Of a stretch of DNA of 64,000 bases, positions 8,099 to 51,963 are shown one piece after another; the first letter of the stretch is position 1, and every line of letters starts with the position of its first letter. Made by a program: the position numbers and the translations under genes. The notes beneath the pieces are model-generated. The model had not been told where the DNA came from. It worked only from the letters and a program-made list of their open reading frames with translations, and searched no databases. This DNA comes from Haloplanus salinarum (GTDB taxonomy: Archaea > Halobacteriota > Halobacteria > Halobacteriales > Haloferacaceae). The stretch is taken from contig NZ_CP101823.1 in NCBI RefSeq assembly GCF_024498175.1, positions 1,116,001 to 1,180,000 on the forward strand. The letters run 5' to 3'.

Positions 8099-8272
8099 AT
8101 GGTCGACCGTTCCCTCCGAACCGTCCTGTGTGTCCTCGTCGGCGTCGTCGTCGGCGCCGCCCTCGGCCCCCTTCTGGTACCGGACCCGACCGGCCTCCTC
8201 GCGGCGGCACTGGCCGTCGTCGTCGCCGTCGCCGTCGGCGGCGTGCTCCGTCGGTCCGACTGGCTTCGGTAG
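8099..8272 (+). CDS. 57-aa two-helix membrane protein, C-terminus altered by insertion
   Basis: Small reading frame starting MVDRSLRTVLCVLVGVV and ending RRSDWLR, with two hydrophobic segments (about 8-28 and 33-50) joined by PDPTG. High GC3 and membrane-protein composition support coding. The TAG stop is made by the first bases of the foldback element that starts at 8268. Removing the element and one copy of the 8-base duplication gives an uninterrupted frame ending seven residues later (DVDLRCR). Function unknown. Confidence 0.6.
   Translation: MVDRSLRTVLCVLVGVVVGAALGPLLVPDPTGLLAAALAVVVAVAVGGVLRRSDWLR
8260..8267 (+). repeat. Left 8-bp target site duplication
   Basis: CTGGCTTC immediately before the left end of the foldback element; the identical octamer is at 8700-8707 immediately after its right end. 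Confidence 0.85.
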
Positions 8273-8699
8273 TGTTGCGATTAGCGCGATTGGATTGGAG
8301 ACACCTCGAAAGCCCCCGCCGTCTCGGCTCCCGGGACTCGCTGCGCTCCTCACTCCGTTGCGGTGCTTGCGTCGTCACCAGAATCCGGAGGATTCTGGTT
8401 GGCTCACGAGAGCTTTGCTCTCGTGAACGTCCGGGTACGCCGAGACGCCGGCCCCTTTCAGTCCCGCCCGCATCGGCTGGTCGGCTAGCCACCGCTGGGC
8501 GGGACTGAAAGGGGCGCCTCGTAATCGGGCGGCGAAGCCGCCCGATTGCCCGAGGGAGCTTCGCTCCCTCGCTGCTGGAGGAAGGTGGCCGACGCAAGGA
8601 CCGCAGGCCGAAGGCGGAGGACCGCAGCGAGGCCCCCGACTCCAGCGAGGCGGGGCTTTCGAGGTGGTCCCAGTTTCGAATGCGTATCTCAACACTACC
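8268..8699. mobile_element. 432-bp MITE-like foldback element
   Basis: Non-coding element bounded by imperfect 48-49-bp terminal inverted repeats (8268-8316 and 8652-8699). The outer ten bases GGTAGTGTTG / CAACACTACC and the inner ACCTCGAAAGCCCC / GGGGCTTTCGAGGT are perfect matches. The element is flanked by an 8-bp direct duplication CTGGCTTC. The two arms remain alignable as an inverted repeat toward the centre. The centre is a perfect 19-bp stem (8451-8469 with 8497-8515, loop 27 nt). Additional hairpins lie in both arms (near 8380, 8405, 8525, 8550). No transposase is encoded, so it needs one from elsewhere. Confidence 0.8.
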
Positions 8700-8707
8700 C
8701 TGGCTTC
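8700..8707 (+). repeat. Right 8-bp target site duplication
   Basis: CTGGCTTC directly after the right end of the foldback element; matches 8260-8267. Confidence 0.85.
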
Positions 8708-8712
8708 GGGAC

Positions 8713-8726
8713 GTGGATTTAAGGTG
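8713..8726 (+). promoter_or_regulatory. Probable TATA box of the dodecin gene
   Basis: GGATTTAAGG lies about 40 bases before the dodecin ATG in otherwise GC-rich DNA. The foldback element ends only about 14 bases upstream of it, so the insertion may have changed the BRE/upstream region. Confidence 0.4.
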
Positions 8727-8761: not shown

Positions 8762-8962
8762 ATGGTTTTCAAGAAGATCACGCTGATCGGCCGGAGTCCG
8801 GACAGTTTCGACGACGCCGTCGACGACGCCATCGACCGCGCGACGGATACGCTCGACCGCGTCAAGTGGCTGGAGGTGGAAGAACTCGGGGTGGAGATCG
8901 CGGGCGTCGAGAACCGCGAGTATCAGGCCGAAGTCGAGGTGGCGTTCGAACTCGAGGAGTGA
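8762..8962 (+). CDS. Dodecin (flavin storage/binding)
   Basis: 66-aa protein matching haloarchaeal dodecin almost residue for residue in pattern ([10 protein letters not shown]..., [12 protein letters not shown]36, Q55). In the Halobacterium protein the dodecamer stacks riboflavin between tryptophans at position 36 with Gln55 contacting the ligand; both residues are present here. The start MVFKK at ATG 8762 matches the family N-terminus; the longer frame from 8738 is rejected. A hairpin repeat begins at its stop codon. Confidence 0.93.
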
Positions 8963-50616: not shown

Positions 50617-51963
50617 TCACCGCCGCCGCTCGGCCACCCGCTCCTCGGCCGTCTCGGCGCTCACCACCTCGTAGCAGACGGCCGTCCGGCCGTCGGCCTT
50701 CGGGCGGAGCACCCGCCCGAGGCGCTGGGTGAACTCGCGTTCGCTCCCGCTGCCCGAGAGGATCACCCCGACGCTCGCGTCGGGCACGTCGACGCCCTCG
50801 TCGAGGACGTTCGCGGCCACGACGCGGGTGTAGGTTCCCTCGCGGAACCGGTCGAGGATCGCCCGCCGCTCGCTCGCCCCCGTCTCGGCGGTGATCGCCG
50901 GGCAGAGGAAGCGCTCGGAGAGCCGGTAGACGAGGTCGGTGTGGGCGGTGAAGACGATGGTGCGCGCGTCCGGGTGGCGCGCGAAGATCCGCTCCAGCGC
51001 GTCGACTTTCGCCGCCGAGTTCATCATGATCTCCCGGGCCTCCTGTTTGGCCAGCAGCGCCTCCCGGGCTCGCGGGTCGCTCCCGGACCGCTTGACCAGT
51101 TCGCGGTAGTCGCTCCCGCTGGACAGCGAGAGGTTCGAGGTCTTGAGGTAGTCGACGAAGGTGCCCTGGGCGTCCTCGTAGGCCTCGCGTTCGGCGGGCG
51201 TCAGTTCGACCTCGACCCGCCGGAGTTCGTAGTCCGCGAGGTGGTCGCCGGCCAGGTCGTCGACCGAGCGGTCGTAGACGACGGGGCCGACGAGGTCCGC
51301 GACGACCTCGTGGGCCCCGTCCGGACGCTCGAAGGTGGCGGTCAGGCCCAGGCGGGCGGGCGCCGGAAGCAGGCGGGCGATGTCGCGGTAGCCCTCGCCG
51401 CCGAGGTGGTGGACCTCGTCGAAGACCACGAACCCGAACCGGTCGCCGACCTCGTCGGCACGGAGGTACGCGGAGTCGTAGGTGGCGACGGTCAGGGATT
51501 CGAGGCGTTGCTCGCCGCCGCCGAGTTGGCCGACCGGCACCGAGAACTCGGTTTCGAGTTCGCGGCGCCACTGGTGGAGGAGGTCGACCGTCGGCACGAC
51601 CACGAGCGTCGGCGTCGACAGGTCGGCCATCGCCCTGATCGCGACGACGGTCTTGCCGCTCCCGGTCGGGAGTTCGAGGATCCCCCGCCGGTCGGCGTCC
51701 GCCCACGCCGCGAGCGCCGCGGACTGGTAGTCCCGGAGGTCGTACGTCGTCGACAGATCGAGCGTCGGGAGGTCGAACACCCGATCCTCGTAGTCGATTC
51801 CGGCCGCGTCGAGGGCGTCGCGGAGGGCGGCATACCGGTGGGCCGGCGCCCGGAGGGTCCCGCTCCGGCCGTCGAACTCGACGGGGAGGGCGTCGGCGGC
51901 CGCGGGGTCGAGGTCGCCGTCGAGCCGAATCGTTCCGTCGGCGAACCGGGCGACGAGGGTCAC
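50617..51963 (-). CDS. XPB/Rad25-type DNA helicase
   Basis: 448 aa from GTG 51963. N-terminal DNA-damage recognition-like domain (about 1-75), then helicase motifs: DYQSAALAAW, Walker A LPTGSGKTVVA, DEVHH box in VVFDEVHHLGGEGY, GLTATFERPDG, and motif VI QRLGRVLRPK. The thumb-like insertion (ELTPAEREAYEDAQGTFVDYLK...) is present. Works with Bax1 in repair. Length matches archaeal XPB. Confidence 0.92.
   Translation of the reverse strand: MTLVARFADGTIRLDGDLDPAAADALPVEFDGRSGTLRAPAHRYAALRDALDAAGIDYEDRVFDLPTLDLSTTYDLRDYQSAALAAWADADRRGILELPTGSGKTVVAIRAMADLSTPTLVVVPTVDLLHQWRRELETEFSVPVGQLGGGEQRLESLTVATYDSAYLRADEVGDRFGFVVFDEVHHLGGEGYRDIARLLPAPARLGLTATFERPDGAHEVVADLVGPVVYDRSVDDLAGDHLADYELRRVEVELTPAEREAYEDAQGTFVDYLKTSNLSLSSGSDYRELVKRSGSDPRAREALLAKQEAREIMMNSAAKVDALERIFARHPDARTIVFTAHTDLVYRLSERFLCPAITAETGASERRAILDRFREGTYTRVVAANVLDEGVDVPDASVGVILSGSGSEREFTQRLGRVLRPKADGRTAVCYEVVSAETAEERVAERRR

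Follow-up and report, generated by a model that had tools for sequence, protein, structure and literature searches.

The window, a 64,000-nt stretch of the Haloplanus salinarum genome (contig NZ_CP101823.1, positions 1,116,001 to 1,180,000), carries a 432-bp inserted element between a short open reading frame and a dodecin gene. In window coordinates, the features of the locus are as follows.

8099-8272, + strand: open reading frame of 57 aa, whose last codon and stop extend into the element (64 aa across the joined flanks)
8260-8267: left copy of the 8-bp target duplication, CTGGCTTC
8268-8284, + strand: left IS6-type terminal repeat, GGTAGTGTTGCGATTAG, an A-type end with ATTAG
8302-8469, - strand: left structured unit in reverse orientation, with a nested twin hairpin (covariance model R1, 80.4 bits, E 2.6e-13)
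8377-8428, + strand: 52-bp twin-hairpin micro-element in the left unit, ACCAGAA..TTCTGGTTGGCTCACGAGAGC..GAAC, with GTC on both sides
8451-8469: left arm of the central stem, GCCCCTTTCAGTCCCGCCC
8497-8515: right arm of the central stem, GGGCGGGACTGAAAGGGGC, which is also the first box of the right unit
8497-8666, + strand: right structured unit in forward orientation, ending in GGGGCTTTCGAGGTG
8523-8570, + strand: second hairpin pair (AATCGGGCGGCGAAGCCGCCCGATT, GAGGGAGCTTCGCTCCCTC), which interrupts the 5' strand of the right unit's helix P1
8683-8699, - strand: right IS6-type terminal repeat, reading inward GGTAGTGTTGAGATACG, a B-type end
8700-8707: right copy of the 8-bp target duplication, CTGGCTTC
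8762-8962, + strand: dodecin gene, the downstream neighbour (Pfam PF07311, 77.3 bits)

An earlier note on this DNA had described a 432-bp insertion with a perfect octamer duplication and a 19-bp perfect central stem, and both were confirmed, the insertion at 8268-8699 between the CTGGCTTC copies and the stem at 8451-8469/8497-8515. The terminal inverted repeats that it reported are also present, but not at their proposed length of 48 bp: these ends are composites of an IS6-type terminal repeat of ~17 bp, a spacer of ~17-20 bp that is unlike between the element's two sides, and CACCTCGAAAGCCCC, which is part of the cargo. Folded as single-stranded DNA, the element reaches -163.4 kcal/mol versus -93.8 for shuffled sequences (z -16.2, 0/100 as good). 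Covariance model R1, described below, finds both halves, which places two units head to head inside the IS6 ends. In the right unit its match spans 8544-8666 on the + strand (57.3 bits), the 5' strand of P1 being displaced by the nested hairpin pair; elsewhere in the window it returned a weak match at 50750-50853 (17.2 bits, E 0.26), treated as noise. No phage match was found.

The effects on the neighbouring genes appear modest. A premature stop had been proposed for the short open reading frame, which indeed encodes 57 aa as it stands and would encode 64 aa without the insert; the homologous frame in relative G010 stops at about the same place without an insert, and the 57-aa product matched no Pfam family, so the stop amounts to a small effect on an unproven gene. 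On the dodecin side, a TATA-like TTTAA starts at 8718, 18 bp past the element end and 10 bp past the duplication, which corrects the earlier distance of about 14 bases. A sigma-70 promoter and terminator scan, which is not designed for archaea, found nothing. Most likely, the insertion is passive with respect to dodecin, lying upstream of a core promoter that is intact.

The ends of the element led to an IS6-family partner through an end-sequence pattern search in 12 genomes of the genus. In several of these, opposite ends are paired ~690 bp apart and enclose a 211-aa transposase, which matches NCBIfam IS6 model NF033587 at 207.8 bits (cut-off 125) and Pfam PF13610 at 38.4 bits (cut-off 27). 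The window genome (G000, one 3.45-Mb contig) holds four IS6-family copies of 697-698 bp, each with a perfect 8-bp duplication and ending in GGTGCTGTTCAGATTAG / GGTAGTGTTCAGATAAG or close variants; three retain an uninterrupted full-length transposase frame and the fourth (L191) is frameshifted. According to the part of PMC6807381 consulted, the archaeal IS6 elements ISH14, ISH29, ISHarch12 and ISHarch14 are 696-698 bp long, with a 211-aa transposase, GG ends and 8-bp duplications, and the resident IS6 matches them in all four respects. The two ends of the IS6 elements can be told apart (..CAGATTAG versus ..CAGATAAG), and most of the MITE copies compared carry one of each. In the window copy, the left end is A-type, like the GGTGCTGTTCAGATTAG end of the IS6 copies, and the right end B-type, like the GGTAGTGTTCAGATAAG end. 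The element itself contains no transposase gene, and candidate partners in trans are the IS6 copies of the same genome. The search for a transposase with matching ends, as suggested earlier, thus succeeded for IS6 transposases, with a match of ~17 bp, not 48; these ends are all that the window MITE and the resident IS6 have in common. Within the ~17 bp several bases differ, so the transposase partner of the window copy may be another IS6 subtype.

Further copies and an insert-free site, whose joint absence the earlier note had held against its own reading, were both found. Besides the window copy (at C1:1124268), the genome carries three full copies, at ~C1:1431465, 1815740 and 2943192, and one decayed MITE end at C1:262277. 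The three measure 374, 294 and 324 bp and vary in their inner modules. Two are flanked by 8-bp duplications (GTGACCGT, GGTGAGGG), giving three of four with the window copy included, and the 294-bp copy has no 8-bp duplication and the same end type at both sides. Across 46 MITE loci examined, both ends were recognisable in 36, the other ten being L159, L161, L166, L168, L171, L174, L177, L182, L149 and L122. An exact 8-bp duplication flanks 9 of the 36, rising to 16 when an end shift of up to 2 nt is allowed, and 19 reach at least 7/8. With the same shifts, control pairings of the left flank of one element with the right flank of another gave 8/8 in 2 of 1260 cases and 7/8 in 26. For the 20 MITEs that have no full 8-bp duplication even with shifts, as for the loci without recognisable ends, possible causes are decay, recombination or wrongly placed ends.

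Two copies in relative G003 agree at 376 of 377 positions, so the family has moved recently there. The dodecin locus of G010 has no insert: the joined flanks of the window align to it over 326 columns at 77% identity, with 28 other bases near the junction. Elements of the same kind are present in Halobellus salinus and Halonotius roseus, and a strict-pattern scan of genome contigs returned 8 stretches from 3 organisms. A plasmid of the halophilic archaeon DL31, which from the name we take to be the source of the known element MITEHarch3, carries a 354-bp element (L291) with IS6-like ends, a unit-like interior and no duplication.

In G003, L155 (C7:1577k) has two B-type ends and L156 (C7:1814k), 237 kb apart from it, two A-type ends, and an octamer flanking L155 recurs in reverse complement next to L156. 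This is suggestive of a crossover between two A-B copies that inverted the intervening 237 kb, a reading based on one octamer and the swapped ends, as the other flank pair does not match. The same test turned up five more shared octamers, all of them a single GC-rich word in G006. There, three MITE copies (L162-L164) share the flanking octamer GGCGAGCG in either orientation, from either a target preference or a position within a repeat.

The copies in the same and related genomes, the near-identical pair, the IS6 elements with like ends, the 8-bp duplications and the insert-free relative support the earlier view of a non-autonomous transposed element and, on sequence grounds, identify it as an IS6-family MITE. 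The same ends and duplication length would suit a classical decay product, that is, an internally deleted IS6 element in place of IS6 ends around unrelated cargo. However, homology to the 697-698 bp IS ceases ~17-18 bp in from each end, and the interior is an order-wide unit that occurs without IS6 ends in other genera, which makes such an origin extremely improbable. A further candidate origin lies in the classes described from Haloquadratum walsbyi, where MITEs, PATEs and SMRs are known (PMC3119063). In the part of that account available, PATEs have neither terminal inverted repeats nor target duplications, and SMRs have no target duplications and ends unlike any transposon; elements of both hosts have no transposase and may be nested one in another. 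A PATE or SMR moved by IS200/IS605 or by an unknown mechanism would agree with the palindrome-rich sequence and with the ~50-bp nested hairpin pairs, which recall the 52-bp terminal-only PATEs of the same partial source. This reading could fit the nested 52-bp modules, not the whole, since the element has IS6-like ends and, unlike PATEs and SMRs, a target duplication; we consider it highly improbable. Assigned to the PATEs, the element failed on the presence of both terminal inverted repeats and a target duplication, and assigned to the SMRs on its IS6-matching ends and duplication. The pages of PMC3119063 consulted do not mention a structured unit.

Closer relatives of the element are two IS6 MITEs known from ISfinder, MITEHarch3 and MITEBth2, of 227 and 336 bp (PMC6807381, PMC7986276, both in part). 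They share with it IS6-type ends and the absence of a transposase, and their descriptions, as far as available, make no mention of a conserved structured cargo, in a comparison based on the descriptions. As an IS6 MITE, then, the element is well supported and belongs to a known kind; what surprises is its cargo.

Very probably, the locus as a whole is explained by a MITE mobilised in trans by IS6, with a two-unit cargo selected for pairing. An IS6-family transposase of the same genome would move the MITE. By analogy with published IS6/IS26 elements, it would pair the two MITE ends and join them to a target site opened by staggered cuts 8 bp apart; replication would then make a cointegrate, and homologous recombination between two MITE copies would resolve it. 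The cargo would be a folded unit, present twice and head to head, which also exists on its own throughout the order and would be kept by selection for pairing within one strand.

Parts of the window element were found by similarity search in 71 of 99 relatives, and what is shared is mostly the inner unit, not the ends: GGGYGGGACTGAAAGGGGC, a variable arm and GGGGCTTTCGAGGTG. The unit is ~113 nt long; the strand that would form a putative RNA is the one marked by GGGACUGAAAGGGGC...GGGGCUUUC. An exact 15-mer, GGGACTGAAAGGGGC, occurs in 47 of the 99 genomes, with a maximum of 74 occurrences (in G025), against 0 for its reversed pattern. In 129 arms, the first 12 and last 12 positions (P1) form on average 10.75 of 12 Watson-Crick pairs versus 5.81 of 12 with the 3' halves swapped, and these arms contain 86 distinct 5' 12-mers. 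A 53-unit subset was folded, 41 of which make up alignment A1; of its 30 pairs, 21 have changed on both sides in a compensatory manner. Paired cells account for 96.2% of A1 versus 73.0% when shuffled, and covariation reaches 0.558 versus 0.153 (0/500 shuffles as high), with 0.056-0.085 for slid versions. The invariant boxes sit outside the varying helices. As judged from this covariation, the base pairing of the unit is under constraint, a pattern that fits RNA and folded DNA alike. Furthermore, in P1 on the GGGACTGAAAGGGGC strand, G-U pairs exceed A-C mismatches by 51 to 20, counted in 144 of 159 arms (P 3e-4, a value that ignores relatedness), which hints at the folding strand and at RNA. 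Rfam gave no match at the gathering cut-off in the 20 loci searched, and in the window stretch only miRNA matches far below cut-off.

With a covariance model (R1) derived from A1, the unit was detected in 67 of the 99 relatives at E <= 0.01; with up to 38 candidates scored per genome, high per-genome counts are to be read as at least that many. In a draw of 196 genomes from the phylum, 29 match, all from the same family or order. Other genera contain single units without IS6 ends, and twin units without IS6 ends occur in G053 and G084. Between two species of one genus, both flanks of 8 of 12 unit loci in G013 align to G040 loci, which were pre-selected for carrying the motif. The orientation of neighbouring genes around 43 units, based on crude gene calls, showed no clear bias.

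On plasmids, the unit lies within ~0.7 kb upstream of a gene annotated as DNA-binding or OB-fold in 12 of the 14 hits examined, out of 29. In eight such loci compared, a conserved block extends from the outer end of the unit to ~100 bp beyond the gene, and further in some pairs. The protein shows a partial likeness to replication factor A (NF005553, 65-72 bits against a cut-off of 353) and weak OB-fold matches. At L195-L208, this block measures ~1.65 kb and comprises the unit, a long GC-rich conserved leader, mostly without annotation, the RPA-like OB-fold gene and ~100 bp, ending in several loci near GGGCTTTCGCC; its hosts are plasmids of DL31, DL1, Natrinema, Haladaptatus, Halorarius and others, in five haloarchaeal families.

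The pairing of the arms could also be maintained by DNA processes, such as cruciform extrusion, gene conversion between inverted arms or rounds of hairpin insertion, and not by selection on RNA or a single strand. In keeping with this, two sister species carry a unit in opposite orientations at one locus with collinear flanks (L255/L271 in G013/G040), end types are swapped between copies, and hairpin pairs insert into the unit. Against it, selection on a single folded strand would account for the invariant boxes, which lie outside the varying helices, and for the excess of G-U over A-C on one strand; units also occupy syntenic sites in two species. On balance we regard DNA processes as unlikely, while giving them appreciable weight. 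Far less plausible, and indeed very unlikely, is that the unit serves a TnpB/IS200-IS605 element as its guide-RNA scaffold (omegaRNA): it is structured and dispersed, with variable sequence after its 3' box, and haloarchaea are rich in such elements (PMC3119063, in part), but no Rfam family matched, and a single TnpB query matched 2 of 307 loci (its own and one weak), so the units are not at the ends of the queried tnpB type. Selection on one folded strand is our preferred reading, and because it is the pairing of one strand that would be selected, the unit most likely acts as RNA or as folded single-stranded DNA.

Bacterial REP, REPIN and BIME repeats are dispersed, palindromic and often found as inverted pairs. 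The unit resembles them in these respects, as far as the descriptions at hand extend, and differs in its ~113 nt, several helices, invariant boxes and covariation. Its core words had no match in the haloarchaeal literature searched, a search that most subscription papers lay outside, and nothing naming it was found in the accessible portion of the work on haloarchaeal repeats and structured RNAs. It seems to be a structured element not described before, and may be an RNA. Beyond the earlier note, then, the locus reveals IS6 as the mobilising family, an order-wide structured unit in mirror duplicate and two nested micro-elements. More tentatively, and short of an even chance in our estimation, the unit may be a new class of structured noncoding RNA (or a single-stranded DNA recognition element) of Halobacteriales, with up to dozens of copies per genome and a plasmid association with an RPA-like single-strand-binding gene, hitch-hiking in mirror-image pairs in IS6 MITEs of several genera; a transposon would thereby both spread a functional folded element and bring it back into pairs. 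Haloarchaeal genomes contain many unannotated palindromic repeats, and one of these is now tied to a defined mobiliser, IS6, with a cargo under strong base-pair constraint across an order and no Rfam match. If RNA, the unit would represent a large class that has gone unstudied, in an order for which laboratory hosts exist; if a DNA structure, a dispersed module for recombination and inversion.

Both nested micro-elements of the window appear to be insertions of their own. Units without the second hairpin pair read straight through its position. The 52-bp twin hairpin, whose size recalls the 52-bp terminal-only PATEs in the part of PMC3119063 consulted, is found in 20 of the 99 genomes, often within units and also alone. 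A lone copy lies inside a long open frame in G000, and another lies in a gene in G040 that we read as presumably glyoxalase-like. The micro-element was seen in units and genes at L014, L197, L199, L209, L213 and L217; at L199 it splits an IS6-type transposase gene, and at L197 it lies where the match to another such gene begins.

The units also vary in their interior and surroundings. In G097 (L127-L138), they have a different inner part, GGTCG..CTAT..GGTGCGGAGAG..ATATGTC, and many are preceded by tandem repeats of ~26 nt. In G040 and G013 (L139-L146), a second recurring palindrome, GCGGTGGCGCGA..GCGCGAGGGA..GGTTGGGGAGG, lies directly upstream of many units.
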